Assembly (NCBI GenBank): GCA_013360295.1
Contig: JABWCL010000005.1
Location: 1-64,000 of the forward strand
Reading direction: 5' to 3'
DNA: 64,000 nucleotides
DNA from: Ignavibacteriaceae bacterium
Lineage (GTDB): Bacteria > Bacteroidota > Ignavibacteria > Ignavibacteriales > Ignavibacteriaceae
A model generated the notes under the pieces. That model was not told the origin of the DNA, did no database searches, and saw nothing but the letters and a program-made list of their open reading frames with translations. Made by a program: the position numbers and the translations under genes. This document shows, in pieces, positions 4,931 through 30,485 of the stretch (within the stretch, counting starts at the first letter, position 1; each line of letters starts with the position of its first letter).

Positions 4931-4954
4931 TAATAGTATTAATAACCCCTCCCG

Positions 4955-4980
4955 GCCTCCCCTTTATAAAAAGGGGAGGC
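4955..4980. terminator. Perfect 11-bp hairpin between hemE and hemN
   Basis: GCCTCCCCTTT at 4955-4965 pairs with AAAGGGGAGGC at 4970-4980 around the loop ATAA. Only GGAATTTT follows, so it is a weak intrinsic terminator at best. The sequence resembles CCTCCCC/GGGGAGG intergenic repeats that occur in many genomes, so it may be a dispersed repeat or an mRNA stabiliser between the two genes. Confidence 0.6.
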
Positions 4981-5000
4981 GGAATTTTGATTGTTTGTAA

Positions 5001-6380: not shown

Positions 6381-6395
6381 GAGTCAATCATTACT

Positions 6396-7715: not shown

Positions 7716-7730
7716 CGAGGAAAAAAGTAA

Positions 7731-8285
7731 ATGATTCAGATGAACTCACTTGGATTGATAGAAATGACCAGCATTGCTTCGGGGATGCAGGCTGCGGATA
7801 TAATGTTAAAAACCTCTAACGTTGAGCTTATACTTTCCCGGACGATCTGCTCCGGAAAGTATATGACGCTCATTGGTGGTGAAGTAGCAGCGGTGCAGAC
7901 TGCGGTGGATGCCGCGGTCGAAACTATCGGTTTCGCTGTGATTGACCATTTTGTAATTCCGAACGTGCATAAATCAATTTTTCCGGCGCTCGCCGGGCAT
8001 AACAACATCCCGATGCTTGAGGCGCTTGGTATAGTTGAGTCATTTTCAGTTGCCTCGCTTATAGAAGCAGCGGATGCTGCGGTGAAATCCGCCCGGGTTG
8101 AGCTTATAGAAGTACGCCTTGCGATGGCTCTCGGAGGGAAAGCGTTCTTCACAATAACCGGCGAAGTAGCGGCAGTACGCTCCGCGGTGGATGCCGGAGC
8201 TAGGGTGGTTGAAGAAAAAGGTTTACTCGTTAACAAGGTAGTCATTCCGCAGCCACGTAAGGAACTGCTCTCGGAAATGATCTAA
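7731..8285 (+). CDS. pduT: PduT-like tandem BMC-domain shell protein with Fe-S pore cysteine
   Basis: A 184-residue protein made of two BMC domains: residues 5 to about 88 (SLGLIEMTSIASGMQAADIM) and about 97-180 (ALGIVESFSVASLIEAADAA). Tandem BMC proteins form trimers in microcompartment shells. Cys40, in RTICSGKYMTLIGGEVAAV, matches the cysteine that holds a [4Fe-4S] cluster at the PduT pore. With PduS it forms a plausible electron conduit into a microcompartment. No single-BMC hexamer or vertex pentamer gene is in the window, so the shell must be encoded elsewhere or be absent. Confidence 0.85.
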   Translation: MIQMNSLGLIEMTSIASGMQAADIMLKTSNVELILSRTICSGKYMTLIGGEVAAVQTAVDAAVETIGFAVIDHFVIPNVHKSIFPALAGHNNIPMLEALGIVESFSVASLIEAADAAVKSARVELIEVRLAMALGGKAFFTITGEVAAVRSAVDAGARVVEEKGLLVNKVVIPQPRKELLSEMI

Positions 8286-8306
8286 GTTATTGTTCTATAA
8301 GGGGTT

Positions 8307-8333
8307 AGGGTGACATACCGCCGGTATTGCCCT
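8307..8333 (+). terminator. Imperfect hairpin after pduT
   Basis: The palindrome ATACCG-C-CGGTAT (8315-8327) is enclosed by AGGG (8307-8310) and CCCT (8330-8333). No T tract follows, so factor-independent termination is uncertain; it may simply end the hem-pdu transcript or stabilise its 3' end. Confidence 0.35.
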
Positions 8334-8387
8334 GAAATTGTGAGAAAAAGTGTGTTTTTTATCTAAATAATAAATTAAGTGTGCATA

Positions 8388-8416
8388 TTGACAGAAAATC
8401 AATTGTTGCGTATATT
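8388..8416 (+). promoter_or_regulatory. Promoter of the prs operon
   Basis: TTGACA (8388-8393), a 17-bp spacer, then TATATT (8411-8416), which continues as TATATTTA. This fits a sigma-70 consensus closely and also resembles the TAnnTTTG element of Bacteroidota. It lies 35 bp before the prs start, and AAAGGAG follows at 8443-8449. Confidence 0.65.
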
Positions 8417-8450
8417 TAAAGTCTTGCTATTTTTAGAAAGTTAAAGGAGT

Positions 8451-9392
8451 ATGGATAACGGTTACAAAATATTTTCCGGTAATTCTAACAAGGCCTTAGC
8501 TGAGAAGATAGCGAGGAATCTGGGTCAGGAGTTAGGCGAGCTGGAATTAAAAAAATTCAGCGACGGTGAAATCTGGGTAAAGTACGGAGAGAATATCAGA
8601 GGTACTGAAGTCTTCATAATCCAATCAACCAATCCGCCGGCAGAAAACCTGATGGAGTTATTGATTATGGTCGACGCCGCCAAGCGCGCGTCAGCCAAAA
8701 GAATAACGGTCGTTATGCCCTATTTCGGTTATGCCCGGCAGGACAGGAAAGACCAGCCAAGAGTTTCCATCACAGCCAAACTCATTGCCAACGTTATCAC
8801 AGTCGCGGGCGCGGATCGTGTACTTACAATGGATCTGCACGCTTCCCAGATACAGGGATTTTTCGATATTCCCTTCGATCACTTGTACGGTTCATCCATA
8901 TTCGTGAGCGCGCTCGAAAACCTTAGTGATAACCTTGTTGTCGTTTCACCGGACGTGGGAGGGATTAAGATCGCCAGGTCATACGCCAAGCGGCTTAACG
9001 CGAATCTTATTGTGATCGACAAAAGAAGGCCCAAACAGAATATGGTGGAAATTGTTAATATTATCGGTGAAGTCGAGGATAAAGATGTACTTCTTGTTGA
9101 TGACCTCATTGATACAGCCGGAACCTTTGTAGGCGCCATCGAAGCGCTAAAGCAAAACGGCGCCAGGAGGATTTTCGGCGCGGTAACACATCCTCTCCTT
9201 TCGGGAAACGCTATTGAGAGACTGAAAGGCGCGCCGATCGAGAAATTATTTGTTACGGATTCGATTGATATAAGTGATAAAGCCTGCGATAATATCGAGG
9301 TACTCGATTCTTCGTGGCTCTTTTCCGAGGCAATTGAAATGATTTATAAAAATGAATCAATCAGTTCCCTCTTTGCAAATGATAAAAGTTAA
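8451..9392 (+). CDS. prs: Ribose-phosphate pyrophosphokinase
   Basis: Makes phosphoribosyl pyrophosphate from ribose-5-phosphate and ATP for nucleotide, His and Trp synthesis. It is 313 residues, the usual size. Visible motifs are IFSGNSNKALAEKIA at the start, the flexible-loop region PYFGYARQDRKDQPR, the divalent-cation site VLTMDLHASQIQGFFDIP and the PRPP-binding signature DVLLVDDLIDTAGT. It leads a housekeeping run and precedes rplY by 27 bp, an arrangement common in bacteria. Confidence 0.96.
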   Translation: MDNGYKIFSGNSNKALAEKIARNLGQELGELELKKFSDGEIWVKYGENIRGTEVFIIQSTNPPAENLMELLIMVDAAKRASAKRITVVMPYFGYARQDRKDQPRVSITAKLIANVITVAGADRVLTMDLHASQIQGFFDIPFDHLYGSSIFVSALENLSDNLVVVSPDVGGIKIARSYAKRLNANLIVIDKRRPKQNMVEIVNIIGEVEDKDVLLVDDLIDTAGTFVGAIEALKQNGARRIFGAVTHPLLSGNAIERLKGAPIEKLFVTDSIDISDKACDNIEVLDSSWLFSEAIEMIYKNESISSLFANDKS

Positions 9393-9419
9393 TAAAAATT
9401 TAGTTCTAATGGAGTTCAA

Positions 9420-10055
9420 ATGGAAAAAGTAGTATTGACCGCCGGACACAGAGCCGTCGGGACAAAATCAATAAACACACAACTGAGAGTAAATGGGAAT
9501 GTTCCCGGGATTTATTATACCAGGCAGGAAGCACCGGTGCCGATTTTTGTTGCCGAGAATGCTCTCAATCCTCTGGTATTCACATCTGATACACATATCA
9601 TCGATCTGAAACTCGAGGGAGAGGAAAATAAAGAGTGCATCATCAAAGACGTACAGTTTGATCCCGTTACAGACAGGATTGTGCATTTTGACCTCCTGGG
9701 AATCATCAAAGGTGAGAAGATCCAGATCGAAGTACCGGTCTTATTCAAAGGAAGCGCTGAAGGCGTAAGGATGGGCGGAATTCTTCAGGAGTTCCTGCAC
9801 AAAGTCAGAGTCGAATGCTTCCCGTCAGACTTGCCCGAACATATCGAAGTTGATGTTTCCGGTTTAAAATTTGGTCATTCTTATCACGTGAGTGATATTA
9901 TGTCAGAGAAATTTACTATTTTGCATCCGGCGGATACAGTTTTAGTGTCTGTAACGCACGCCAGAGGAGAAGTAACCACAACAACAGCAACCGGTGAAGA
10001 ATTAACAGAACCGGAAGTAATAGCTAAAGGAAAAGATAAACAAGCGGAAGAGTAA
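9420..10055 (+). CDS. rplY: 50S ribosomal protein bL25, long Ctc/TL5 form
   Basis: At 211 residues this is the two-domain (Ctc/TL5) form: an N-terminal 5S-rRNA-binding L25 domain (residues about 5-90, with VNGNVPGIYY and IKDVQFDPVTDRIVHFDLL) and a C-terminal TL5 domain (about 98-185, with VPVLFKGSAEGVRMGGIL). The tail is charged (KGKDKQAEE). pth follows after 2 bp, the conserved prs-ctc-pth order. Confidence 0.95.
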   Translation: MEKVVLTAGHRAVGTKSINTQLRVNGNVPGIYYTRQEAPVPIFVAENALNPLVFTSDTHIIDLKLEGEENKECIIKDVQFDPVTDRIVHFDLLGIIKGEKIQIEVPVLFKGSAEGVRMGGILQEFLHKVRVECFPSDLPEHIEVDVSGLKFGHSYHVSDIMSEKFTILHPADTVLVSVTHARGEVTTTTATGEELTEPEVIAKGKDKQAEE

Positions 10056-10057
10056 CA

Positions 10058-10912
10058 ATGAAAGTCATCGTTGGACTTGGAAATCCGGGTCAAAGGTTTC
10101 AAGAGACCCGGCACAACGTGGGTTTTATGTTCCTCGACTATCTTGCCCAGAAATTCAACTTAGAGTTTGTCCCAGGGAGACGGGACTACTTCATAGCTGA
10201 GGGCTCTTTAGATGGTCAGGAATTCGTTCTAATCAAACCCACAACTTACATGAATCTCTCCGGCAGGATTATCCATCAATATCTCACAGAGCACCGCCTG
10301 TTACCACAGGATGTTATGGTGGTCTATGATGATGTTAATCTGGAATTCGGCCGTGCGAGAGTAAAAAACGGAGGCGGTTCAGGCGGCCACAACGGCATTG
10401 AATCGTGCATCCAGAACCTCGGAACCAATCGTTTCTCGCGTTTGCGTATCGGGATCGGAAAGAGTTTTGACCGCAGGAAAATTCTCGAGTACGTCCTGAG
10501 CCCATTCACCGACCAGGAAATCCAGAATATCATCGGGCCATTCGAATACTGTTCTATGATGATATATGCTTTTGTCAAGGACGGCGTGGATATGATGCTG
10601 AACTTAAACAGCATGATCATCAACAGCCAGAAGGGCAAGCAGGATATTCCGGACGAGAAAAAACCTGATTATTATTCAGAATATGTTAAGCTTTACATCC
10701 CGCCCCCTCAGCCGCGCCGCAAGCGTTTAGCTGAAGGTGAAGAAGGCGCTGAAGGTGAAGCTGGCGAGATCTATACGGATGAAATGAAGGATGAATCAGG
10801 CGAATACTCCGGCGATTCTGAAGGCGGTTACAACGGAGATGATTCCGGTTACGACCGTTATGAGGATACCTCCTTGGGTGATATTCCGTTTGATGATACG
10901 AATAAGAATTAA
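10058..10912 (+). CDS. pth: Peptidyl-tRNA hydrolase with an acidic C-terminal extension
   Basis: Recycles peptidyl-tRNA released from stalled ribosomes. Residues 1 to about 190 are a complete Pth domain: VGLGNPGQRFQETRHNVGFM (with Asn and catalytic His), KPTTYMNLSG, VYDDVNLEFGRAR and GGGSGGHNGIESC. The protein continues to 284 residues, about 90 longer than usual. After SEYVKLYIPPPQPRRKRLAE the tail is acidic and rich in Glu, Gly, Asp and Tyr, without visible fold, and is probably disordered. The catalytic part looks normal. Confidence 0.93.
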   Translation: MKVIVGLGNPGQRFQETRHNVGFMFLDYLAQKFNLEFVPGRRDYFIAEGSLDGQEFVLIKPTTYMNLSGRIIHQYLTEHRLLPQDVMVVYDDVNLEFGRARVKNGGGSGGHNGIESCIQNLGTNRFSRLRIGIGKSFDRRKILEYVLSPFTDQEIQNIIGPFEYCSMMIYAFVKDGVDMMLNLNSMIINSQKGKQDIPDEKKPDYYSEYVKLYIPPPQPRRKRLAEGEEGAEGEAGEIYTDEMKDESGEYSGDSEGGYNGDDSGYDRYEDTSLGDIPFDDTNKN

Positions 10913-10929
10913 AATAACAAACTAACTTT

Positions 10930-10981
10930 ATTTATTAACCCTGCTCTTGCCTGCCGGCAAGGGCCTAAAGTCCGAAGGGAG
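10930..10981 (+). promoter_or_regulatory. Hairpin in the leader of rpsF
   Basis: Between pth and rpsF the sequence GCTCTTGCC-TGCC-GGCAAGGGC can form a 9-bp stem (one GU pair). A second weak hairpin (TCC/GGA within AAAG/CTTT) covers the ribosome-binding region before the GTG start. rpsF leaders in many bacteria carry an S6:S18-binding hairpin with an exposed CCG; a CCG is present here, but I could not show that it lies in the required bulge. Confidence 0.3.
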
Positions 10982-10987
10982 TCCTTT

Positions 10988-11437
10988 GTGAGAATTAGTC
11001 AGTATGAGACTGCGGTGATAATTAACGCCGCTCTCGAAGACTCGGCTGTGGAAGCCGAGATAACCAAAATCCAGGATATGATTGTGAGCTTTGGCGGTAC
11101 AATTGTTGATCTGGATAAGTGGGGCAGGAAACGTCTTGCCTATCAAATCAAAAAGCATAAGATCGGTTATTATGTTATTTACCGTTATGATGCTCCAACC
11201 GAGGCAGTTGCTAAGATCGAAAGATTGCTGCGCCTTAATGAATCATTAGTCAGATTCTTAACCATTAAACTGGATAAGTTCGCTATTGAGCACCTCGAAG
11301 ACCAGAAAGCTAAACGCGCCGCACTGCAGGTTGCCCCGCCCGATGAGGTAATTGAACTTGCAGCAGAGCCGGAAATTTTCGAAGAACCGTTTACAGAATC
11401 CGAACCTGAAGAAGTAACTCCGGAAACAAAAGAATAA
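10988..11437 (+). CDS. rpsF: 30S ribosomal protein bS6
   Basis: A protein of 149 residues that binds S18 in the small-subunit platform. Family segments are YETAVIINAAL, the WGRKRLAYQIKKHKIGYYVI stretch and RFLTIKLDKFA. The start is GTG at 10988 (RISQYETAV); no ATG fits. The acidic tail from about residue 118 (EEPFTESEPEEVTPETKE) is longer than in E. coli. The rpsF-ssb-rpsR-rplI order is conserved in bacteria. Confidence 0.95.
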   Translation: MRISQYETAVIINAALEDSAVEAEITKIQDMIVSFGGTIVDLDKWGRKRLAYQIKKHKIGYYVIYRYDAPTEAVAKIERLLRLNESLVRFLTIKLDKFAIEHLEDQKAKRAALQVAPPDEVIELAAEPEIFEEPFTESEPEEVTPETKE

Positions 11438-16942: not shown

Positions 16943-16969
16943 ATTAACTCTTAACTTTTAACTTTTAAC
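16943..16969 (-). repeat. Right arm of inverted AT-rich heptamer repeat
   Basis: ATTAACTCTTAAC followed by TTTTAAC units. It is inverted relative to 16324-16357 and overlaps the stop codon of fdtB (16965-16967), so the repeat itself supplies that stop. Confidence 0.75.
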
Positions 16970-18065
16970 CCGGAAACGAATTTAAGCATTCCACTACGCG
17001 TTTGATGTCATCTTCAGTATGATAGAAGGATATCGGAAGTGACAAGGTTGTTTTGTGGATTTCTTCGGAGAGGGGATGGGTGCCGGAGAGGATTCCCTGC
17101 ATAGCCTTTTGGTTGTGGGGGGCAACGGGATAATGGATTTCGGTTTTTATGTTATGCTCAAGTAAATACTGACGCAGTTCATCGCGCTTTGGGTGGCGGA
17201 TATTGTAAATGTGGTATACGTCAAAATAGTCGGGGTGAATGGCCGGTTTTATGAATCTGTCGCTTATCCCTGCATCGTAGAGACGGGCGAGTTTTCTTTT
17301 GTGTTCGTTTATATTATTCAGGCTCCTGAGTTTTACCGAGAGGAACCCTGCCTGCACTTCATCAAGCCGGGAGTTGTATCCGACAAGTTCATTGTAGTAT
17401 TTTACATCGGAGCCGTAATTGCGGAGCCGGCGGATGGTGAGGGCGAGTTCATCGTCATTTGTTATTATGGCTCCGGCGTCACCTAAGGCGCCGAGGTTTT
17501 TTGTAGGGTAAAAACTGAAAGCGCCGAATTCGCCGAATGTCCCGGTTAGCTTCCCCCTGTATGTCGCGCCGTGCGACTGCGCGCAGTCCTCCACCATTTT
17601 CAATCCGTATTTTTTCTTTACTGCCATCAACCCTTCCATATCACAGCTCTTGCCATACAGGTGCACCGGCATTATCGCCACGGTGCGGGGTGTTACAGCG
17701 GCTTCAAGCAGCGCGGGATCAATATTGTAGGTGGTAATGTCAGGTTCAACCAACACGGGTTTGAGCCCGCAGTGAATGATCGCCAGGATCGTTGCAATAT
17801 AAGTGTTTGAAGGGACAATAACTTCATCCCCCGGTTTGAAGTTAAAAGCCTTTAACCCGAGAATAAGAGCGTCAAGACCCGAGGCAAGGCCGATGCAGTG
17901 TTTTACGCCGTGGTAAGCCGCGAATGCTTTTTCAAATTCCTTAACATTGTTCCCCAGTATGTACCATCCGCTGTTCATTGTAGCGGCAAACGACCGCTTG
18001 TATTCATCAAAGAAGGGGCGGTTCAGTTCGCCCAGGTTTTCATACTCTATCAGGGTAGGGTTCAT
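16965..18065 (-). CDS. fdtB: DegT/DnrJ/EryC1-type sugar aminotransferase (FdtB-like)
   Basis: A PLP-dependent aminotransferase of 366 residues that transaminates a keto group of a nucleotide sugar. The PLP lysine is Lys189 in FYPTKNLGALGDAGA. Other family segments are GLASGLDALILGLKA, PSNTYIATILAI, MPVHLYGKSCDM and EDCAQSHGATY. Because it overlaps fdtA by 26 bp, the likely product is dTDP-3-amino-3,6-dideoxy-hexose (Fuc3N or Qui3N type) for LPS or another glycan. Its stop codon lies within the AT-rich repeat arm, so the original C-terminus could have been slightly different. Confidence 0.88.
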   Translation of the reverse strand: MNPTLIEYENLGELNRPFFDEYKRSFAATMNSGWYILGNNVKEFEKAFAAYHGVKHCIGLASGLDALILGLKAFNFKPGDEVIVPSNTYIATILAIIHCGLKPVLVEPDITTYNIDPALLEAAVTPRTVAIMPVHLYGKSCDMEGLMAVKKKYGLKMVEDCAQSHGATYRGKLTGTFGEFGAFSFYPTKNLGALGDAGAIITNDDELALTIRRLRNYGSDVKYYNELVGYNSRLDEVQAGFLSVKLRSLNNINEHKRKLARLYDAGISDRFIKPAIHPDYFDVYHIYNIRHPKRDELRQYLLEHNIKTEIHYPVAPHNQKAMQGILSGTHPLSEEIHKTTLSLPISFYHTEDDIKRVVECLNSFPG

Positions 18066-18417
18066 ATATATAGTCCTCCGGGTCGAAGAGAGTGGAAGCC
18101 ATTACCAGCAAAACGGCGTCGGGGGTGAAATGATGCATAGTGTGCCAGTCCTCCGGCTCGAGGATGAGGCACTTCTGAGGATGGTCGAGGACGAACTCCT
18201 CCTTTTTACTGCCGTTAAAATTACTCACAATGCACGAGCCGTGAATGCAGATAGCTGCCTGCCGTGTGCTTTTGTGCCTGTGCCCGCCGCGTACGGAGTC
18301 ATCCACGTTATAGATATAGAAAAATCGTTTTATATCAAAGGGGATTTCTTTTTCCACGACAGTAAGATTACCCCTCTTCTCAGTATGTGTTTTAAGATAA
18401 ATGATATGCGCCATCAA
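18040..18417 (-). CDS. fdtA: FdtA/QdtA-like sugar 3,4-ketoisomerase (cupin)
   Basis: 125 residues, a single cupin domain. Motifs are RGNLTVVEKEIPFDIKRFFY, IYNVDDSVRGGHRHKSTRQA (with the His pair HRH) and LILEPEDWHTMHHF. The family isomerises dTDP-4-keto-6-deoxyglucose to the 3-keto sugar, the substrate of the FdtB/QdtB aminotransferase encoded next. Fuc3N and Qui3N branches are not distinguishable by eye, so the exact sugar is uncertain. Its start overlaps the glycosyltransferase stop by 4 bp. Confidence 0.85.
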   Translation of the reverse strand: MMAHIIYLKTHTEKRGNLTVVEKEIPFDIKRFFYIYNVDDSVRGGHRHKSTRQAAICIHGSCIVSNFNGSKKEEFVLDHPQKCLILEPEDWHTMHHFTPDAVLLVMASTLFDPEDYIYEPYPDRV

Positions 18418-19400
18418 TCCTCAATGAATTTTGAAACGGAGAAAACATTATATACTTTATAAAATTTACGGTACAATGTAATAAGTTTATTCTTAAAGTC
18501 ATTGGTAAATTCTCGGGCGCCGTTCGGGTCAAATCCGGGTATTATCGCGTTTACTTCCTCCTTTACCGCTGAGAGTTCTTTGAGGTACGGTTTATAAAAC
18601 AAATCGATCACCCGGCGGGTAAGTAGCCGCCTGCCGAGATCAACCGTGCCGTTGGTATAAAAACGGACATAATGGAAGTGATAGAAGATAACTTCAAACT
18701 CCCTGCCGCGCCCTTTTTCAATTAAATAGAGCTTTCCGAACTCATCGTAGAAGTCATACTGCTGAACATTCCACGAAGCTATCCCGGCGCCGAGGTGCTG
18801 CATAACGTGCACGCCGCTGAAGCGCACCGGCCAATCCTCAAGGTATAACTGGTCGCCGAACTTCCCATCCTCGAACCGCGCGTAGCACCACTCAATGCAC
18901 TGATCGCGCCACCACCTGAGCGCTTTAAGCCCGCGTTCATCATTTTTGAACGTTACAAACTGAACGCAGTAAGTGCCGCTTTTTAATTCTTTGTTGTAAA
19001 TGGGAGTATAGCGGTGCTCGGTTATCAGTATTGACCTCGAACCAAGCTCTTCAAATACCGGCGCGGGGGAGGAATAGAATATCAGGTCGGCGTCAATATA
19101 TGTGCAGTTATCCGCTTTGTACTTTTCCAGGACGTACAGTATTGTTGAAGAGGTGCAGGTCCAGCAATATTCCGCCTGTGTGCGGGTGGGCTTGACCTTA
19201 AGCAGTTTTTCATCTTCAAAATCCGAAAGGGAGATAACGGTGGCGTGAGTGAAATTCAGTTTAGCGAGGATCTCCTCTGTCCGCTTATCAAAAGCGAAGA
19301 TGTAGAGGTGGAATGCCTCGCAGTGTTTTTCCAGCGACCGGTACATCGCGATACCGCGCGTAAGATAATTAGAATCGAAAAGTGTGCAGAAGTTATACAT
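18414..19400 (-). CDS. GT-A type glycosyltransferase
   Basis: A 328-residue protein with a GT-A fold: the N-terminus MYNFCTLFDSNYLTRGIAMY is a nucleotide-sugar site of GT8-like enzymes, and CTYIDADLIFYSSP carries the metal-binding DxD (Asp103, Asp105). The C-terminal half has HVMQHLGAGIASWNVQQYDF and FYHFHYVRFY. No transmembrane segment. Encoded with fdtA/fdtB, so it probably transfers a sugar during O-antigen or other surface-glycan synthesis; donor and acceptor are unknown. Confidence 0.8.
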   Translation of the reverse strand: MYNFCTLFDSNYLTRGIAMYRSLEKHCEAFHLYIFAFDKRTEEILAKLNFTHATVISLSDFEDEKLLKVKPTRTQAEYCWTCTSSTILYVLEKYKADNCTYIDADLIFYSSPAPVFEELGSRSILITEHRYTPIYNKELKSGTYCVQFVTFKNDERGLKALRWWRDQCIEWCYARFEDGKFGDQLYLEDWPVRFSGVHVMQHLGAGIASWNVQQYDFYDEFGKLYLIEKGRGREFEVIFYHFHYVRFYTNGTVDLGRRLLTRRVIDLFYKPYLKELSAVKEEVNAIIPGFDPNGAREFTNDFKNKLITLYRKFYKVYNVFSVSKFIED

Positions 19401-19404
19401 CCGC

Positions 19405-20361
19405 TTAACCGTTATATTTCTGCTTGAATGCTTTTAAATATAATCCCAATGCTCTCAGTGAGAAACGTTCCTTCCTTATTATTTTCAGTGAATTATTCTT
19501 TAAATCTGTAAATAGTGGTTCATTAAAGATATTCTCCCCCTGTACTGCCAGCCCCAGCGCAAAGCCGTGTTGACCCAGAATTGAGCTAAAAAGCCAGCCG
19601 AGAAGGAAACTTCTGCGTGATTTTATATCTTTGAATTTATTAACAAAGCACAATTCCGCCCAACCGGGAGAAGTTTTCAGACTGAATTCAGTCAACTTTC
19701 GCGAAATACCACCAGAACTTATTTTATCCACGTATTCAGGTTTTATTCTCTTCGAACCCTTAACCACCATATCTGAGAGCCAGAATTCCAGACTTTCCAT
19801 ATATTTAAGGATTTCATACATCTTATCTTCCCCTGCGTATGAATCTATTATCCCCGGTTCTAGTTCAGCGACGATAACATTTTTTTGAATATCATCTTTT
19901 AGACTTCTGAACAGCCTCAGATCAGTACCCTGTGAATCGCTTTTATACCAGTCAATCTTATTGAGTCCTAACTCATCAAGAGCCCGAGTCAGTGTGATAC
20001 TGTTTAACTTTGTTTTTCCTGTGACCTTAAATTTATCAGCAAATGCCCAATCGCTCAGTTCGATTTCGCGAGGAGGTAATGTGCTTGAACAATAAGGTGA
20101 ATTTGTTAAATAGAAATCCACCTTCGATTCTTCCTTGTCACTGACGATGGTATTGAGTTTATAAAGCTTTTTATATCCCTTATCTTCCGCCGAACTGATG
20201 TTAAAATCGCGTGTATCTGCATCAAAAGCCACGCAAATTGAGTGAGGGGCGATCTCCTTCCAAATCGGATGGATCTTCTCGGATGCGCCAATATCGATCA
20301 GCACCGGGGGATCATCGATAATATCCGGATCCGTTAGTATTTTACCAAATATATAACGCAT
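19405..20361 (-). CDS. FkbM-family-like methyltransferase
   Basis: A 318-residue protein. The first part has a SAM-binding site (VLIDIGASEKIHPIWKEIAP) and CVAFDADTRDFN; the middle has SITLTRALDELGLNKIDWYK and SDSQGTDLRLFRSL, the FkbM hallmark (an acidic residue followed by a chain to the target). This family O-methylates sugars and other small molecules. It lies 4 bp upstream of the glycosyltransferase and 2 bp after the MetW-like gene, so all five are probably one operon for a methylated, amino-sugar-containing glycan. Confidence 0.75.
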   Translation of the reverse strand: MRYIFGKILTDPDIIDDPPVLIDIGASEKIHPIWKEIAPHSICVAFDADTRDFNISSAEDKGYKKLYKLNTIVSDKEESKVDFYLTNSPYCSSTLPPREIELSDWAFADKFKVTGKTKLNSITLTRALDELGLNKIDWYKSDSQGTDLRLFRSLKDDIQKNVIVAELEPGIIDSYAGEDKMYEILKYMESLEFWLSDMVVKGSKRIKPEYVDKISSGGISRKLTEFSLKTSPGWAELCFVNKFKDIKSRRSFLLGWLFSSILGQHGFALGLAVQGENIFNEPLFTDLKNNSLKIIRKERFSLRALGLYLKAFKQKYNG

Positions 20362-20363
20362 TT

Positions 20364-21140
20364 TCAGGATTTTGATATTAAATAAATTGGGAAAATATGG
20401 AATAAATTCGGGAACTTTCCAATTAAAAAATTGCGCAGGAAGTCATTTTCAGAAGTGTTTAACAGTGTCGCTCTCGCTCCGGGCCGGAGTTTATAAAGCA
20501 GAGATAGAAAGTCGGTGCAGGAAAGCTGATGTATATGCCCGGTGTTATACCATTGATATCCAAAGAGTCCCCTGGCGGGCATCCTACCACCGAAAAATAA
20601 CTGAAACCGGTTTTTATAGAAGGCGAAATTCGGGAAAGAAATTATTTGTTTTTCTGAGATCCTAATCATTTCTTTAAGCAGCGTCTCGGGATACATTACC
20701 ATTTGCAGAGTTGTGTTACAGATTGCAAAATCAAATTCATCCTGGGCGAATGGAAGTGTCTCGTCAATCCTCCCTTTTATGACATTCAGCCCTCTTTTCT
20801 GGGCGCTGTGAACACCGCTATCAGCCAATTCAATTCCTGTCACATCACAGTTATTATCCTTTTTAAGTAACTCAATCAGTGAACCATCGCCGCAACCCAG
20901 ATCAATAACTCTGCTACCGGAAGGAATAGAGTCGATGAAATATCGGTATTCCCTGCGGAATTCGGAATGCCCTTCAGGATAGGCATAATTCCTGTTATCG
21001 TTATATAGAGGATTATTTATGTCAAAATTCATCGAAAAATGTTTTATAAAATGCTGCTTTAATATATCAATATTCAAAAAATCAGGGGGGATCAAGTCAA
21101 TTTTTGTATATCTTTTAAATATAACAAAATCTTTCTCCAA
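20364..21140 (-). CDS. MetW-like class I SAM methyltransferase
   Basis: 258 residues. The SAM-binding motif I is SRVIDLGCGDGSLIE at 77-90, followed by VTGIELADSGVHSAQKRGL, and the later DFAICNTTLQMVMYPETLL and FPNFAFYKNRFQLFFGGRMP match MetW-type enzymes. MetW itself partners MetX in methionine synthesis, but metX is not here. The context is a glycan cluster, so its substrate is uncertain. Several upstream in-frame starts exist; an alternative is Met37 (NFDINNPLYN). It is the first gene of the minus-strand operon. Confidence 0.75.
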   Translation of the reverse strand: MEKDFVIFKRYTKIDLIPPDFLNIDILKQHFIKHFSMNFDINNPLYNDNRNYAYPEGHSEFRREYRYFIDSIPSGSRVIDLGCGDGSLIELLKKDNNCDVTGIELADSGVHSAQKRGLNVIKGRIDETLPFAQDEFDFAICNTTLQMVMYPETLLKEMIRISEKQIISFPNFAFYKNRFQLFFGGRMPARGLFGYQWYNTGHIHQLSCTDFLSLLYKLRPGARATLLNTSENDFLRNFLIGKFPNLFHIFPIYLISKS

Positions 21141-23451: not shown

Positions 23452-23949
23452 GTGGGCTTGTCCCAATCTTTACTGACCATTGCCGCGATGATGCTTCTGA
23501 CGACTCTCGCGATACGGGTGAACTCTACGGTGCTGATGTCGCAGGAAACTTCTCAGAATTCGAAATTCGGACTTGCGGCGATTTCTTTAGCGACTTCCGA
23601 AATTGAGGAAGCCAGCAGGCTGGCTTTTGATGAAAATTCAAACGATAACCCGCTAACCTCAGTGAATAGTTTGACCAATGTCAGCGCCCTCGGTAAGGAA
23701 TCTGGGGAAACAAATCCTTCCAATTTTGATGACCTGGATGATTATCATAACTATTCATACACCGATTCCACGCAAATATCGGCTGTGTTCCGAGTCTGGT
23801 TTTCAGTTAATTATGTAAATACCGCCAGCCTCAATTCGGTTTCTTCATCGAAAACCTGGCACAAAAGGATAACAGTAAATGTTGCCAGCCCCTCGATGAG
23901 AGATACTGTCAGGTTTTCTTCGGTTTTTAGTTACTGGGTTTTCCGTTAA
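23452..23949 (+). CDS. Pseudopilin-like membrane-anchored protein (first of three)
   Basis: 165 residues starting at GTG. The very N-terminus is a hydrophobic helix (SQSLLTIAAMMLLTTLAIRV) with no positively charged leader. A helical region (LAAISLATSEIEEASRLAFD) and a beta-rich C-terminal part follow, with small and polar residues. This layout is typical of pseudopilins or PilV/PilX-like minor pilins. The stop overlaps the next start (TAATG), so the genes are coupled. Assignment to a pilin family is by layout, not by a recognised signature. Confidence 0.5.
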   Translation: MGLSQSLLTIAAMMLLTTLAIRVNSTVLMSQETSQNSKFGLAAISLATSEIEEASRLAFDENSNDNPLTSVNSLTNVSALGKESGETNPSNFDDLDDYHNYSYTDSTQISAVFRVWFSVNYVNTASLNSVSSSKTWHKRITVNVASPSMRDTVRFSSVFSYWVFR

Positions 23950-24554
23950 TGGGTACGCAGGTTTTACTTGATATTATGGGTTCTATGTTCATCGGAGGCG
24001 TGCTTATCCTTACGCTTCAGCGAGTTAACCAGGAGACTGTGGCGCAGTTCTATTATTACTCTTCCGATTTTATCCTGCAGCGTTCTCTGATTGATATGGT
24101 TGAAATACTTGAAAATGATCTTAAAAGAATTGGCTATACGGCAAACCCGATGCTGATACCTACCCCCACGGAAGCGATCCGCGCGGCGGACACTTCCTCC
24201 ATCAGGTTTGTAGGTGACGTTGACGCGGACGGCACGGTAGATACGATTAATTACAGCATCAGCGCGACATCAGCCGTTGCAAATACTAAAAATCCGCGTG
24301 ACCGCATATTATACAAAAGAATTAACAGCGGTTCGCAGTTTATCATCAGCGCGAACGTAACCCGTTTCAGGTTCGATTATTTTAACGCTTTGGGGCAGAG
24401 TATTGCTACGCCCATCCCATCAAATGAAACAGGCGAGATTGCCACAATTCAGCTTTCCGTTGAAGTGGAAAGCCCGGACGCATTTGACGATAATTACGCT
24501 CAGGCCTATTGGAGGCAGGTGAGACTGGCTGCAAAAAATTTAAGGAACAGGTGA
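23949..24554 (+). CDS. Pseudopilin-like protein, PilW-type (second of three)
   Basis: 201 residues. The N-terminal segment LLDIMGSMFIGGVLILTLQR is a hydrophobic helix followed by an amphipathic helix (QRSLIDMVEILENDLKRIGY), then strands with DTSSIRFVGDVDADGTVDTI and a C-terminal RLAAKNLRNR. This resembles PilW/PulJ-type minor pilins, where the helix continues out of the membrane and a globular part follows. It overlaps the first gene by 1 bp and stands 7 bp before the third. Confidence 0.5.
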   Translation: MGTQVLLDIMGSMFIGGVLILTLQRVNQETVAQFYYYSSDFILQRSLIDMVEILENDLKRIGYTANPMLIPTPTEAIRAADTSSIRFVGDVDADGTVDTINYSISATSAVANTKNPRDRILYKRINSGSQFIISANVTRFRFDYFNALGQSIATPIPSNETGEIATIQLSVEVESPDAFDDNYAQAYWRQVRLAAKNLRNR

Positions 24555-24561
24555 TCGCTGT

Positions 24562-25776
24562 ATGTTTGGTAAAGCCGCTTTATTTCTTGTTTTAGGTTTT
24601 AGTACCATTTTTATGGTTTACAACGCCAATATGATAAGGTCGACAAATAATACCGTTGACCTTTACTCAGATTATTATCAGAGGACGATGGCGAACCACA
24701 TAGCCAATACCGGCGCTAATATTGCCTGCAACGGGCTGTTCCTTTCTCCCAACTGGACTTCCAATATGAGCAATACTGAGTTTAATGGTGGGAAGATATC
24801 AGTCTATCTGACCAATCTCTCCGGTGATAAAAAACGGGTGGTATCTGTCTCTGAATATATGAATATGAAGGATACTGTTATTATCACTCTGCAGCCGAGT
24901 AATTTTGCCAAGTTTGCCTACTATGCGGCGCAGATGCCCGGTAACCTGTATTATGCCACAGGCGATACAGTATGGGGCCCGATGCATATTCAGGGAAAGC
25001 TTAATGTCCTCGGCAGTCCCGTCTTTTACGGAAAAGTAACCGCGCAGAACGGCCTGAAGTACGGTAACTCTTCCACGAATCCCAAGTTTTACGGCGGTTA
25101 CGAGAGCGGAGTGAATCTGCCTCTTCCCTCAACTGTACCCGATGTTAGTTCCAAAGCAAGCAGCGGTGGAAGATTGATATCCAATAAAGATCTCTATCTG
25201 ACATTTAATTCTAATGGTACTGTAACATACCGCGAGGGGTCTTCCGGTGCTTTTACTACTGTTGCACTCTCAACATACGCGCCCAATGGGGTAATCTATG
25301 TTGATAAGGGCAATGCGTACATTAAAGGAACCGTTAAGGGAAAGATAACGCTGGGAGCAGGTAAATCATCCGGTGCGGGAAGCGGTAATATTTATTTTGA
25401 TGATGACATACGCTATAGCACTGATCCCGAAAGCCCTTCCTGTACTGATATGCTTGGTCTCGTTGCATCAAATGATTTCGTGATAAGAGATGTTCCCGCT
25501 ACAAAAGGTGATTTCACTCTTCACGCTACCTGTATGTCTCTCAGCGGAGGCTTGACTGTGGAGAATTATAATTCCATACCTTACCAGGGGGCGATACGTC
25601 TGACAGGCGGACTGATCGAGAATCAGTCGCAGCCAACAGGTGTTTGGAGTTCGAGCTTAAATAAAGTGACCAAGGGTTATAACTCCGTTTTTAAGTATGA
25701 TACCCGATATATGCTTGAAGTTCCCCCTGCTTTCCCTTCAACAGGATCGTACGAAATTACTTCCTGGCTGGAATAA
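24562..25776 (+). CDS. PilX-like protein with a beta-helix-like C-terminal part (third of three)
   Basis: 404 residues. The N-terminal hydrophobic helix (GKAALFLVLGFSTIFMVYNA) and the following helix with DLYSDYYQRTMANHIANTG resemble PilX-type proteins. From about residue 130 the sequence is rich in repeated short strands: WGPMHIQGKLNVLGSPVFYG, KVTAQNGLKYGNSS, GVIYVDKGNAYIKGTVKGKI, TLGAGKSSGAGSGNIYFDDD. Such GPMHIQG-type repeats suggest a right-handed beta-helix, as in DUF4900-like proteins. Probably the large tip or surface-exposed member of the set. Confidence 0.5.
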   Translation: MFGKAALFLVLGFSTIFMVYNANMIRSTNNTVDLYSDYYQRTMANHIANTGANIACNGLFLSPNWTSNMSNTEFNGGKISVYLTNLSGDKKRVVSVSEYMNMKDTVIITLQPSNFAKFAYYAAQMPGNLYYATGDTVWGPMHIQGKLNVLGSPVFYGKVTAQNGLKYGNSSTNPKFYGGYESGVNLPLPSTVPDVSSKASSGGRLISNKDLYLTFNSNGTVTYREGSSGAFTTVALSTYAPNGVIYVDKGNAYIKGTVKGKITLGAGKSSGAGSGNIYFDDDIRYSTDPESPSCTDMLGLVASNDFVIRDVPATKGDFTLHATCMSLSGGLTVENYNSIPYQGAIRLTGGLIENQSQPTGVWSSSLNKVTKGYNSVFKYDTRYMLEVPPAFPSTGSYEITSWLE

Positions 25777-26377
25777 AAGTTTTTTTATGACCCGGTTCCT
25801 TCTGGCAGCCGGGCCGCCTTCTCTTTAAACTGATTTGTCAAAAAGTATCTGATAGATCCTAATCCTTCTTCCACAAAAACACCGCCGGGGAGAGGCAAGC
25901 CCGCTTCTTAATATTTGACTATCTGTGGTCATCCTCTCCATCCTCGTAATCTGCGTCCCATCCCGACGAAACACCTAAACCATTTTTAATTCTTAATCCC
26001 CTGAGGGATTCATAATTCTGAATTTTTAATTCATAAACCAGCGGAGCCGGTGCCATAAAAAAGGCAAACTGCGGAGGCAACTCGACTGCCTAAAATACTC
26101 TGGGCTGACTTCCGGAAATCACTGAAGTGATTTTCCTCCGTCTTTATCCCCTCACCAAAGCAGCGAAATGGCTTCAGCCATTTGCGGACATAACACTAAC
26201 TTTTAACTTAAAATTAAAATTCTTGCCATTTCCAGGGGGATATTAAATTTGCGCATAATATTTTTTTTAACGACTTGATTCTTAATTCTTAATTTTTAAT
26301 TCTTAATTTTCCTGAACCGTTCAGTGGATTTGTCACCCCGGCTTCTTCATTTTGCTTTTAAAAAAAGGAGAATTAAA
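25777..26377. other. Long intergenic stretch crowded with short repeats and palindromes
   Basis: No gene is seen. It contains AT-rich TTAATTCTTAATTTTTAATT blocks (about 25987-26035, 26200-26222 and 26278-26308), a near-perfect inverted repeat GGAAATCACT-GA-AGTGATTTTCC at about 26114-26137, another AAATGGCT-TC-AGCCATTT at about 26166-26183, and a segment near 25930-25960 (CCATCCTCGTAATCTGCGTC) that resembles a dispersed repeat. It precedes the phage-like pair. AAAAAAGGAG at 26361-26370 is the ribosome-binding site of the next gene. Confidence 0.55.
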
Positions 26378-26602
26378 ATGGAAATACTTACGCCAGAAAT
26401 TCTTAAACTTATAGCAAATGGCGGGATCGGGATAGTTTTATTTGTTATCTGGTTTATCACTTTCACCCGCGCGATAAAAGTATATCAGGATACGACCGAA
26501 AAACTTTTCCGGCTGATGGAAGCTGAAGCTAAACAGAAAGAACAGCTTAATATTGTTCTTAGCCGGCTGGAAGTTAAACTTGATATTCTTATGAGGGAGT
26601 AA
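26378..26602 (+). CDS. Small holin-like membrane protein
   Basis: 74 residues from ATG 26378, chosen for the AAAAAAGGAG site just upstream. One transmembrane helix (GGIGIVLFVIWFITFTRAI) is followed by a charged coiled-coil-like tail (KLFRLMEAEAKQKEQLNIVL, EVKLDIL). Small single-helix proteins with such tails occur as phage holins or holin accessory proteins. Only 2 bp separate it from a terminase gene, which supports a phage origin. No specific family was recognised. Confidence 0.6.
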   Translation: MEILTPEILKLIANGGIGIVLFVIWFITFTRAIKVYQDTTEKLFRLMEAEAKQKEQLNIVLSRLEVKLDILMRE

Positions 26603-26604
26603 GA

Positions 26605-27951
26605 ATGACCGGAAAGATAGATGAGAAAAAATATTTTCTTGGGTACCAGTCTGAGTGGCTCGATGATGATTCGCCGGTGAAGATATGGGAGAAGTCGCGA
26701 AGGATCGGAGCAACGTATGTACAGTCGTATGAGGATGTGCGGGACTGTATCCTCGGGCGCTATCCTTCAGTATGGTTTTCTTCCGCTGACGATTCCGCGG
26801 CTAAAGAATACATCAGATACTGCGTGCAGTGGGCGGGGATATTTGATGCGGTTATTAATGAGGGGGTGATTAAGAAACGCAATGGCCAGAACGCCTACCG
26901 CATAACATTTTTCAATGGGAGCAGGATCACCGCGCTCAGCAGCAACCCAAAATCATTCCGCTCGAAAGGTGGCAAAGTATGCCTTGATGAATTCGCGCAT
27001 CACCATCATCAGCAGGAGCTATGGAAAGCCGCGCGCCCCGTTATTACGTGGGGCTACCCGGTGCGGATCCTTTCTACTCACAATGGAAAACTCAATATGT
27101 TTTATGATTTTCTTGATCAGATCAGGAAAGGAGAACTGGGGTGGAGCCTGCATAGAACGGACATTAATGATGCCCTCCGGGACGGTCTGCTTGAGAAAAT
27201 ACTCGGGCGCAGGGTGAGGAAGGCTGAGAAGGATAAATGGCTTGATGAATTACGCGCCGGTTGCGCGGACGAATATTCCTGGCAGGAAGAATATCTGTGT
27301 GTTCCGGTTGATGAAGCGACTGCGTTTCTTACTTATGATTTAATTACGTCGTGCGTTGCCGAACAATCTGCTTCAGCCGCTAAAGAGGCAGTTTGCGCGC
27401 TGGGGATAGATATCGGACGCAGCCACGATCTTACAGTCGTGTGGGCTATGTGCAGAAGTGAAGGGCTTTTTTTGACAAAGGAAGTGAGAGTCCTCCGGTC
27501 TTTATCATTCAGGGAACAGAGAAGGGAGATCGAAAAAATGATCAGCGGGCATAATGCCATAGGTGTTTGTATTGATTCTACAGGCCTGGGAATGCAGTTA
27601 GGAGAGGAACTGTGTGAAAAGTACGGAGAGAGAATGGTGGAAAAATTTGTCTTCACCTCAAAGAGCAAAGCAGAAGCCGCCTACCACTTGAAAGCAAAAA
27701 TGCAGGAAGGAGTTGTTAAGTTTCCCGCGGATAAAGAGGCTATCGCTTCTCTGCACAGTGTGACGATTACTCATACCAGATCCGGTGTGGTTTCGATCGG
27801 CGCGCCCAGGACAGAAAGCGGGCACGCGGATCACTTTTGGGCGCTTGCGCTGGCTCTTCGGGCGGCGATGAATGTTAACACCGTGGAATTGAAACCCCGT
27901 TCAGGGAAACTGAGGCTTGAAAGAAACCATCGTCCCGGCAAAAGGAGATAG
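26605..27951 (+). CDS. Phage terminase large subunit (Mu gp28-like)
   Basis: A 448-residue DNA-packaging motor. ATPase part: Walker-A-like KSRRIGAT (30-37), Walker B with Asp128-Glu129 (KVCLDEFA), coupling motif ILSTHNG (155-161). Nuclease part: Asp269 in LGIDIGRSHD, Asp324 in VCIDSTGLG and Asp409 in SGHADHFW. The deviant SRRIG loop is typical of Mu gp28-like terminases. No stop codon, frameshift or missing key residue was seen. No small terminase, portal, capsid or tail gene lies nearby; the next gene is a DUF5686 envelope protein. Confidence 0.85.
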   Translation: MTGKIDEKKYFLGYQSEWLDDDSPVKIWEKSRRIGATYVQSYEDVRDCILGRYPSVWFSSADDSAAKEYIRYCVQWAGIFDAVINEGVIKKRNGQNAYRITFFNGSRITALSSNPKSFRSKGGKVCLDEFAHHHHQQELWKAARPVITWGYPVRILSTHNGKLNMFYDFLDQIRKGELGWSLHRTDINDALRDGLLEKILGRRVRKAEKDKWLDELRAGCADEYSWQEEYLCVPVDEATAFLTYDLITSCVAEQSASAAKEAVCALGIDIGRSHDLTVVWAMCRSEGLFLTKEVRVLRSLSFREQRREIEKMISGHNAIGVCIDSTGLGMQLGEELCEKYGERMVEKFVFTSKSKAEAAYHLKAKMQEGVVKFPADKEAIASLHSVTITHTRSGVVSIGAPRTESGHADHFWALALALRAAMNVNTVELKPRSGKLRLERNHRPGKRR

Positions 27952-28070
27952 ACCGCTTCGTAAGAAAATTGTCGCGGAGGAAATGGAATCCTGAACAAAA
28001 ATCCTTTCGGATTGAACCTTGTAACACCCCAAATGTGTTTAGTATATTAGTATCAAATAATATCGGAATA

Positions 28071-30485
28071 ATGTACCGCTTTTTTATAATCTTAATTTTA
28101 TTGTCGCTTAATACCGCGGCGCAAAACCGTCTTCATATTTCGGGCAACGTGCGCGACTCCATAACAGGAGAACCGCTCCCCTTTGCCAATGTTATGATAC
28201 GGGGGACGTCAATAGGGTCTGTGACGGATATGTCCGGTAACTTTTCAATGAGCCTTACCAGAGGTAAAGGGGTACTGCTTATCTCGATGGTAGGGTACAA
28301 CACCTATAAGTTTACCTATGACGAAAAGCTGAAAGATACTACCCTTACCGTGCTGCTTCAGAGCGCCGTATATGAGCTTCCGCCCGTTACGATTACGGGA
28401 GAAGATCCGGGTGTGGCTGTAATGCGGGGAGTAATAGAAAGGAAGATAAAACAGAAAGAGCGGCTCAGTACGTATACTTATGATCTGTACACAAAGTTTA
28501 TTGTCAGCACCGATACCATCACTGCCGGGCGGTCATCCGGGCTGAGAGATACAACAATCTTTTCGATCTTTGAATCGTTTTCTAAAGGCTACTACAAGGA
28601 ACCCGGGAAATATTTTAATGAGATCTACCGGCGAAGGCAGAGCGTGAACGTGCCGCCGCAGGCAAATTTTGTTGCGTTCGGGACTAACATTAATCTTTAT
28701 GACGATATTGTTAATCTTGTCGGGGAAGAAGTTTATACTCCTTTTCATCCCGACGCGGTTTCCTTTTATGATTTTAAGCTTCTGCAGTGGATTCGCCCGA
28801 TAGAAGGGAACACGATCGCGAAAATAAAGGTTACTCCCAAAACCTCGCAGAGAAAATTATTCGAAGGGATCATTGATGTTGACGGAATAAACTCTGTCCC
28901 GCTGGAAGCCTCGCTCCGTCCCAATCGTGCTGTGCAGCTTCCGTTTGATGCCAGCCTTCTCTATCATCAGACCTTCGGCGAGTTTGAAAATGAATTTATA
29001 ATGCCTACCGGACTCGAGATTATTACCTATGTCCCCGTGGATATAATCTGGTTATATTCAGCGCGCGTGGATGTGAGGATATATAATGTCGCCTATAACT
29101 ATGCGTTTAATCCCCCCGTTTCGGATGAGATATTTGAGCAGAGAAGAGTTGAAGCTGCAAAGGAGGCGGATAAAGAAGAAGAAGAATTCTGGGTGCAGAA
29201 TATGGTAATGCCGCTCCGCCCCGAAGAACTCAGCGCCTACGAGGAAATAAGGGCGGTACGCGAAAATCCCGATTCGATGCTTGTAAATTCAGTCTTCGAA
29301 AAATATATCGGGCCGGTCACCAGGGAAATAGCGAAACTGGACAGGGATCCGTTCACCGGGTTTGATGATTTCTTCAGGTTCAACAGGGTTTCGGGCCTGA
29401 ATCTTGGAGGAGGTTATAAATTCCTGTTTGGTGAGAGGCTGCAATTGATCACTAAAGCCGGGTATTCATTCGCCGATAAAAAACTCAACGGTGAGGTTAA
29501 TCTCGCCTACAGCTTTGATGAAAACGGCAAGTATAAAATCTCAGCCGGCGCGTATTCACGGCTTCAGCGGAGGGATGAAATTGCCGCAGTGGGCGAGAGG
29601 ACTGTAACAACTCTGGCGCTATTATTTAAAAATGATTACGGTGATTACTACTATGCCGATGAAGCAAACATACAATTTGAATACTCAACGGGGCAGCTTC
29701 GGTTCGTTCGCAGGAACCAGTACGCGCGTCCGTTTTCCGTCATACTCGGCTTCAGGACGGGGAATAACAGAAGCGCGCTTGTTAATACAAACTTTGCTCT
29801 TTTTAACAGGAGCGGGATTTACCGTTATAATCCGCTGATCGCGGAGGGGAAAATGAATTCGGTTTATTCCGAGCTGAACCTGAATTATAATCAGTTCCGC
29901 CGCGTTGGTAACCTGGGTATGCAGCTTAGAGGAGAATATTCCGATCCTGTCCGTACCGGCTCGGAATTTGATTTTGAAATGGCGAACGCTACTGTATATC
30001 TCCGCACGCGTACATTCCCGTTATGGACGCTCGACCTGCGGGTGACTGCGGGGAGGGCCTGGGGCAGCTTACCGCCGCAAAGATTCTACAGTTTTGAAAC
30101 CTCAGCATCATCGTTCGCGGTTCAGGGGGCATTCAGGGGTCTGAAGGTAAAAGAGTTTTACGGTGATACGTATGTGTCGGGATTTATGGAACACAATTTC
30201 GGTGAAGTATTTCCGGGGCTAATAAGGATTCCGAATGTAGCATCGTTTGGTGTGGAGTTTATAATCGCGGCGAACGCCGGGTGGACTGCATTTTCAAAGA
30301 CAAATTCCTACAGGAACATAAATCCACAGATGAGATCCACCGAAGACACAAAAGACAAATATTATCTTGAAGGGGGATTAGGATTTAACCGTCTGTTGTT
30401 ATTTTTCCGTTTCGACGTAAGCGCCCGTTTCACGCAGACGGATCAGCCGATATATTTCTTCACCTTCTCAACCGCCACGAATTAA
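28071..30485 (+). CDS. DUF5686 protein with carboxypeptidase-like N-terminal domain
   Basis: 804 residues from ATG 28071, chosen for its signal peptide (YRFFIILILLSLNTAAQ). Residues about 20-100 are a CarboxypepD_reg-like beta-sandwich (ISGNVRDSITGEPLPFANVM, then SVTDMSGNFSMSL and GYNTYKF). The rest is DUF5686: VAVMRGVIERKIKQKERL, then a long barrel-like region ending with aromatic strands. This family is widespread in Bacteroidota and is predicted to be an outer-membrane protein, with no experimental function that I know of. It is alone on the plus strand and meets the DUF4139 gene head to head at a strong hairpin. Confidence 0.85.
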   Translation: MYRFFIILILLSLNTAAQNRLHISGNVRDSITGEPLPFANVMIRGTSIGSVTDMSGNFSMSLTRGKGVLLISMVGYNTYKFTYDEKLKDTTLTVLLQSAVYELPPVTITGEDPGVAVMRGVIERKIKQKERLSTYTYDLYTKFIVSTDTITAGRSSGLRDTTIFSIFESFSKGYYKEPGKYFNEIYRRRQSVNVPPQANFVAFGTNINLYDDIVNLVGEEVYTPFHPDAVSFYDFKLLQWIRPIEGNTIAKIKVTPKTSQRKLFEGIIDVDGINSVPLEASLRPNRAVQLPFDASLLYHQTFGEFENEFIMPTGLEIITYVPVDIIWLYSARVDVRIYNVAYNYAFNPPVSDEIFEQRRVEAAKEADKEEEEFWVQNMVMPLRPEELSAYEEIRAVRENPDSMLVNSVFEKYIGPVTREIAKLDRDPFTGFDDFFRFNRVSGLNLGGGYKFLFGERLQLITKAGYSFADKKLNGEVNLAYSFDENGKYKISAGAYSRLQRRDEIAAVGERTVTTLALLFKNDYGDYYYADEANIQFEYSTGQLRFVRRNQYARPFSVILGFRTGNNRSALVNTNFALFNRSGIYRYNPLIAEGKMNSVYSELNLNYNQFRRVGNLGMQLRGEYSDPVRTGSEFDFEMANATVYLRTRTFPLWTLDLRVTAGRAWGSLPPQRFYSFETSASSFAVQGAFRGLKVKEFYGDTYVSGFMEHNFGEVFPGLIRIPNVASFGVEFIIAANAGWTAFSKTNSYRNINPQMRSTEDTKDKYYLEGGLGFNRLLLFFRFDVSARFTQTDQPIYFFTFSTATN

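Follow-up and report, generated by a model that had tools for sequence, protein, structure and literature searches.

A Mu-type terminase and its partner gene in Ignavibacteriales as part of a putative domesticated and split packaging system

A large terminase of the Mu gp28 type (TerL) and a small partner gene, which stand among bacterial genes in the 64,000 nucleotides of Ignavibacteriaceae DNA analysed here (the window), probably belong to a domesticated, split packaging system like that of gene transfer agents (GTAs), in which any tail would have escaped recognition; we assign this reading a probability of roughly 55%. The domestication of the pair and of a head gene set elsewhere in the genome is well supported by sequence comparison. 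Furthermore, we infer that the system would package host DNA by the headful and without specificity and would transfer it, and that its loci would be expressed in a coordinated manner. The system, known here from its genes alone, is most like the packaging half of a GTA. Membership of the GTAs is not claimed, because no tail was found and delivery is a matter of proposal.

The pair occupies positions 26378-27951, the span given in a preliminary description of this DNA. The partner gene (26378-26602, + strand) encodes a one-helix protein of 74 amino acids whose single hydrophobic stretch is N-terminal and whose tail is charged. It had no match in Pfam and matched phrog_23321, of unknown function, among the PHROGs (3.4e-6); 'holin-like' is its appearance and putative as its function. 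Members of the same family also lie upstream of TerS and TerL in many complete Mu-like prophages. TerL (26605-27951, + strand; 448 amino acids) starts 2 bp past the stop codon of the partner and comprises an ATPase and an RNase H nuclease, in a reading frame without interruption over its full length. It matched Terminase_6N (1.6e-14) and Terminase_6C (7.4e-14) in Pfam, both over the cut-off, and the terminase large subunit phrog_2 (2.2e-36) in PHROGs. In an alignment of 14 TerL sequences, one of which (L034) was entered from an ATG past Walker A, the motif K30-S-R-R-x-G-x-T was nearly invariant, and D128-E129, D269, D324 and D409 were invariant; we take these to be Walker A, Walker B (D128-E129) and the RNase H aspartates, respectively. 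The predicted model of TerL (mean pLDDT 84) resembles T4 gp17, D6E and other terminases, and the profile of the 14 sequences matches solved terminase nucleases and T4 gp17. Among phage records, Leptolyngbya phage Lsp-JY19 and Pseudomonas phage B3 rank highest, with 36-38% identity. Hence, the terminase is as the preliminary description had it, i.e. isolated, apparently intact and Mu-gp28-like, with its ATPase and nuclease residues visible and no lesion. The further claim that no other phage gene is nearby stands for the window, where the 22 phage-family models built here matched only the partner and TerL, and where no other phage gene was noticed in the list of open reading frames. It has to be widened for the genome, in which further genes of the head set lie elsewhere.

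Bacterial genes border the pair on both sides, as had been described: pseudopilin-like genes upstream, and downstream a DUF5686 gene with a carboxypeptidase-regulatory-like domain (27969-30485, + strand). Matches to TerL were found in 19 of the 116 genomes searched, the source genome included. The sole listed member of the same genus, G001 (uncultured Ignavibacteriales bacterium; one contig, CAIMOS010000087.1), keeps the pair at the corresponding position, with open frames wherever they are visible. There the pair lies between the same bacterial genes, four upstream (16965-18065, 18414-19400, 19405-20361 and 20364-21140 in the window, all on the - strand) and five downstream from the DUF5686 gene onward; both borders lie outside the system. 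The derived adjacency of partner and TerL, common to both species between the same bacterial genes, led us to reject independent insertion. The upstream content differs, in that in the window a 616-aa gene and three pseudopilin-like genes intervene between the shared genes and the pair, which they do not on the G001 contig. The three pseudopilin-like genes (23452-25776; identified by eye, one with a weak DUF4900 match) lie directly upstream of the pair. The non-coding stretch between them and the pair (25777-26377) had no blastn match to the congener, though both genes of the pair did.

The partner is 77% identical between the two species. The TerL of G001 is split by two contig ends (L023 and L024) with a 418 bp overlap at 94% identity, which may reflect a strain mixture or a second copy. 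Its parts were compared separately because no single contig shows TerL whole; residues 1-350 are 70% identical, the C-terminal part 54% (dN 0.405), and both parts are open. The genome nearest this genus by LpxC-FabZ (G008; 83% identity) gave no match in searches for TerL, portal and major capsid protein (MCP), so that not every member of the family has the head set. The 31 kb of G008 examined revealed no empty site; this stretch has in common with the window only the LpxC-FabZ gene and one weak partial match.

A dN/dS check, as the preliminary description had proposed, indicates that the pair, syntenic in the two species, is under purifying selection, its synonymous sites being near-saturated or saturated. 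We used NG86 estimates; YN00 was mostly unusable at such divergence. Compared with G001, dN and dS were 0.115 and 1.90 for the partner, 0.098 and 1.63 for the MCP, and 0.285 and 2.13 for the protease. For TerL (dN 0.24) and portal (dN 0.20), dS was saturated and not computable, as in flanking bacterial genes. The nine flanking genes had a dN of 0.08-0.35; three of them gave a dS, of 2.05-5.6, and for the other six none could be computed. TerL identity at codon positions 1, 2 and 3 was 76, 82 and 42%. The two species of another genus, g7, gave similar values (dN 0.124 and dS 2.26 for TerL, 0.137 and 1.79 for portal). Vertical inheritance and selection of phage-derived genes are thus indicated by synteny and dN/dS for both loci of the two species, and likewise for TerL and portal of g7.

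Portal and capsid genes, which the preliminary description had suggested looking for elsewhere, are indeed present. In the source genome, a portal was found on each of contigs C83 and C60, and a capsid protein on each of C60 and C31. The C83 portal lies at the end of its contig, and C31 begins with a block of protease, capsid and spanin-like genes. Because this portal and this block match a single uninterrupted stretch of contig C258 in G001, they most probably make up one locus. In this second locus, a TerS-like gene and the portal lie on one strand, while the protease, capsid and spanin-like genes are divergent; the TerS-like gene of the source genome is interrupted by the contig gap. The comparison spans the TerS-like gene and portal to the spanin-like gene, shortly beyond which the G001 contig ends. 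Over this span the portal, TerS-like, protease, capsid and spanin-like genes are conserved in both species. Identities are 86% for the capsid protein, 72.5% for the portal and 66% for the protease, and these three frames are open. The source-genome portal scored over the PF06074 cut-off, so that a Mu-type terminase and a Mu-type portal are both present. The capsid protein is predicted to adopt an HK97-type fold (mean pLDDT 80.5). Encapsulins resemble the model most closely (TM about 0.5-0.6), and the structures matched also include phage capsids and the capsid of RcGTA (6tb9). The C60 copy, 86% identical to the capsid protein of the locus, was identified as major head protein in PHROGs. 'Spanin-like' is a label given by eye, since the spanin-like genes tested had no match in PHROGs, and in Pfam one had none and the other a match at chance level. 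The head genes hence occupy more than one place, with two loci in the source genus (g1) and two in g7, the latter on the single-contig genome G007.

Both loci are preceded by the same motif in both species. In the window, the palindrome CTGAAC-C-GTTCAG (26312-26324) contains the core GAACNGTTC at 26314-26322, which ends 55 bp ahead of the partner start; in G001 a copy of GAACNGTTC ends 66 bp ahead of the partner gene. Three exact copies per species lie in the divergent region of the second locus, in the source genome within an array of 12-bp period that by eye comprises about seven units. The core was picked by eye once the array had been seen. It occurs twice in the 64-kb window against 0.93 expected, and 25 of 100 shuffles reached as many. 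Pairs of copies spaced 5-35 bp were confined to a single place in the genome, and the reversed control gave none. The exact core was present in 6 of the 14 regions examined, L025 and L030 among them.

In none of the TerS proteins found in this lineage could a DNA-recognition domain be recognised. We built an HMM from the N-terminal helix-turn-helix of 11 TerS proteins. It matched all 77 TerS rows from non-reduced loci (weakest E 3e-9; 11 being training rows and 2 named duplicates) and none of the six from the reduced head loci of Ignavibacteriales (L025, L027, L030 and L051, with duplicates L072 and L119), i.e. 0 of 4 distinct loci. The C-terminal part of TerS was recognised in the reduced rows at E values of 1e-7 to 7.5e-6, and in L051 at only 0.01. 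Accordingly, all four distinct reduced TerS proteins lack the domain, the g1 protein being assigned to TerS by its weak C-terminal match (E 0.01) alone. In IMG/VR, TerS carried the helix-turn-helix in 12 of 12 model-matched cases, drawn from the nearest 20 of 80 contigs by capsid protein. GTA TerS proteins are described as being without a DNA-binding domain in the available text of a review (PMC11841831). The available text on RcGTA says the same of its TerS, the deletion of which left no detectable gene transfer (PMC6854486).

Related Ignavibacteriales genera appear to keep the head set whole or split it differently, judging from the stretches of each locus examined with family profiles. For comparison, complete Mu-like prophages of many phyla contain, by profile, connectors, capsid and protease, followed divergently by partner, C10, TerS, TerL, portal and MuF; such complete prophages are present in the same order, Ignavibacteriales. 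Genus g12 has a spanin-like gene, amidase, capsid, protease, partner, TerS and TerL (L025, a 5.8-kb contig), and in L027 the portal too; the L027 amidase matches Pfam Amidase_2. Genus g27 (L030) has portal, TerL, TerS, protease and capsid. In g7 (L034 and L052 of G007), portal, partner and TerL lie at one place and protease, capsid and spanin-like gene at another. A second locus of G036 (L053) holds protease, capsid, spanin-like gene, amidase, portal and a match to family NL064_15, which adjoins the portal in L064 and L067-L069. TerS was recognised in none of the g7 loci. A gene of family C45 (L034 7088-7717; L033 5594-6184), 60% identical between species and without match in Pfam or PHROGs, lies upstream of the g7 portal, a position in which one might look for TerS. 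In g7 the terminase frames are open; they cover Walker A upstream of the first ATG, GTG or TTG, which in both species falls inside the frame (L034 8992-9180).

Trees were calculated from 41 of 93 TerL rows, 35 of 92 portal rows and all 18 MCP rows. The seven reduced portals group together (SH-aLRT 87), with g1 and g7 as sisters (99) and the C60 portal elsewhere. The eight reduced capsid proteins, C60 included, group against the ten others at 88/94, below the starred level, and this group is not strongly supported; nor does it consist purely of domesticated loci, since the C60 module falls inside it. In the TerL tree, the window pair joins a proteobacterial contig (L131; 80/64) rather than the other reduced loci, and two changes are needed; a single TerL group for the reduced loci was not rejected (p-AU 0.35). 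On the host-marker tree (LpxC-FabZ; 23 of 25 genomes, G045 having no match and G039 a fragment) the reduced genera do not form one clade, so that losses or transfers have to be added.

Tail and transposase genes were searched for with several families. The protein A4, about 315 aa long and without match in PHROGs, is encoded on the tail side of Mu-like prophages. Its profile matched all 10 genomes whose Mu-like prophages are complete or nearly so; the profile rows came from 8 of these genomes. None of the 7 reduced genomes matched, nor did any of the 5 that carry type-2 head-only modules or the 1 other genome. The tape-measure family phrog_9959 matched 3 of 18 genomes, G019 and G061 strongly and G007 marginally (8.6e-4). 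Its negatives count little, because it missed G104, whose prophage matches the tape-measure cluster C26; it also missed G003, G049 and G078. MuF, C6, C8, C11, C9, C26 and C19 had no match in the window, L045 (about 1.5 kb), L050 and L051. In the search for the MuA transposase, phrog_310 matched contig C90 partially (1.3e-9) and C48 marginally (5.9e-4), neither of which carries head genes found here. Hence, no Mu connector, MuF, tail or transposase was recognised beside the Ignavibacteriales head sets, the C60 copy apart. A tail of another type is possible.

We propose that the pair would be the DNA-packaging motor of a Mu-type phage head that became domesticated in a lineage of Ignavibacteriales and whose genes were subsequently scattered along the chromosome. 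A common regulator would release both loci, upon which capsids would assemble and the portal would dock TerL. A TerS without recognition domain would let TerL start on any DNA, and the heads would fill with pieces of the host chromosome, as in GTAs. The membrane partner and the spanin-like gene may serve release, and delivery might rely on tail genes that escaped recognition or on a borrowed tail, or the particle might have no tail at all. In a bolder version, Ignavibacteriales would harbour a Mu-derived GTA lineage that is head-only and dispersed, packages random host DNA under one operator motif and has no ancestral-type tail; this we put forward tentatively, at somewhat less than even odds. 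According to the available text of the review (PMC11841831), GTA particles possess tails, a point against the GTA reading.

The evidence of conservation at both loci applies equally to a domesticated head with a use other than transfer, either as a tailless DNA-filled capsid or in interference with incoming Mu-like phages. Such a use would agree with the absence of the ancestral-type tail protein from the seven reduced genomes, and the complete Mu-like prophages of the same order would offer interference an available target. However, interference alone leaves unexplained why catalytically complete TerL, portal, protease and TerS are retained jointly, and why the TerS recognition domain was lost. 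We regard a non-transfer use as unlikely.

Capsid-forming satellites (cf-PICI) possess head and packaging genes while tails are absent, and satellites are single mobile islands with an integrase and their own packaging specificity. A satellite of this kind, using helper tails and caught in a slowly moving state, would account for a head set that lacks tail genes. The C60 module of the source genome, next to tRNA genes, looks like such an element, and the genes recognised in it recur as a set on an IMG/VR contig (L188). In contrast, the pair and the second locus lie apart, the position of the pair on the chromosome is shared by two diverged species, no integrase was noticed by eye beside the loci in the sequence as far as the portal, and a TerS without recognition domain would not select its own genome. 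This makes a satellite origin quite improbable.

The C60 module (L042, about 4577-11153) is a second head-only module, with capsid and protease of the reduced group and TerL and portal of another type. It also encodes a TerS-like protein in which a helix-turn-helix was seen by eye, and it contains a weak match to a head-tail adaptor (1.6e-4). The module directly adjoins tRNA-Val, tRNA-Leu and, by eye, an apparent tRNA 3' half. Although its MCP falls in the reduced group, we set the module aside as part of the window system in view of its other-type portal and TerL, the helix-turn-helix seen by eye and its tRNA location. No second capsid or portal was matched in G001.

The preliminary description had offered three readings, of which the split GTA-like system proved the best. 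The recent remnant is contradicted and was ruled out by the synteny of the pair and the near-saturated or saturated synonymous divergence; no complete Mu-like prophage was found in the source genome by portal, type-1 capsid and MuA searches. A decaying Mu-like prophage remnant, left intact by chance, would fit genes of Mu-phage origin with most Mu genes gone. It is nevertheless very improbable, as the frames are open at synonymous sites near or beyond saturation in both species and at both loci, likewise for TerL and portal in g7, while neighbouring non-coding DNA has no match. Slightly less credible still is a stand-alone domesticated terminase, i.e. a capsid-independent DNA-processing nuclease or translocase, which would suit a physically solitary pair with conserved catalytic residues but is disfavoured because portal, TerS-like, protease and capsid partners are retained at the other conserved locus, which the same motif precedes.

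The split GTA-like system shares with known GTAs (RcGTA, BaGTA, Dd1 and VTA; GTA viriforms) chromosomal phage-derived structural and packaging genes with vertical descent and purifying selection, the spread of genes over several loci, and a TerS without DNA-binding domain. It differs in its Mu-type head lineage in Ignavibacteriales, in that even the head genes are split, and in that no tail, connector or neck gene was recognised, any transfer being putative. With Mu-like phages and prophages (B3 and Lsp-JY19; G019, G061 and G104) it has in common the families of TerL, portal (PF06074), protease, capsid and partner, and with the prophages also the divergent arrangement of the genes in the head block. 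In contrast to these, MuA/MuB, MuF, connector and tail are unmatched in the window, L045, L050 and L051, TerS is shortened and the genes are dispersed. As in cf-PICI satellites, head and packaging genes occur without tails, but here at two separate loci and without a TerS recognition domain. GTAs in a proposed taxonomy table come from alphaproteobacteria and a spirochaete (available text of PMC9953437), and further GTAs are Desulfovibrio Dd1 and Methanococcus VTA (available text of PMC11841831). In the accessible literature, with subscription papers and preprints mostly outside its scope, we found no GTA in 'Ignavibacteri-' taxa or from a domesticated Mu-like prophage and, judged by title and abstract opening among the records listed, no matching GTA from Bacteroidota or of a tailless kind; for an Ignavibacteri- prophage terminase, only a database paper was found. 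If true, an independently domesticated Mu-type system would suggest loss of the TerS recognition domain as a convergent step, in a case with complete Mu-like prophages of the same order for comparison, and would raise the question of the use of a head-only packaging set.

Compact portal-TerL-TerS modules with a divergent protease and another capsid family were also observed in several Ignavibacteriales genomes (L054-L057, L061-L063 and L065), in which MuF and C9 had no match. The L065 module carries a PF03864 capsid and a cement protein, together with a lysis-like M15 peptidase identified by a sub-threshold match.
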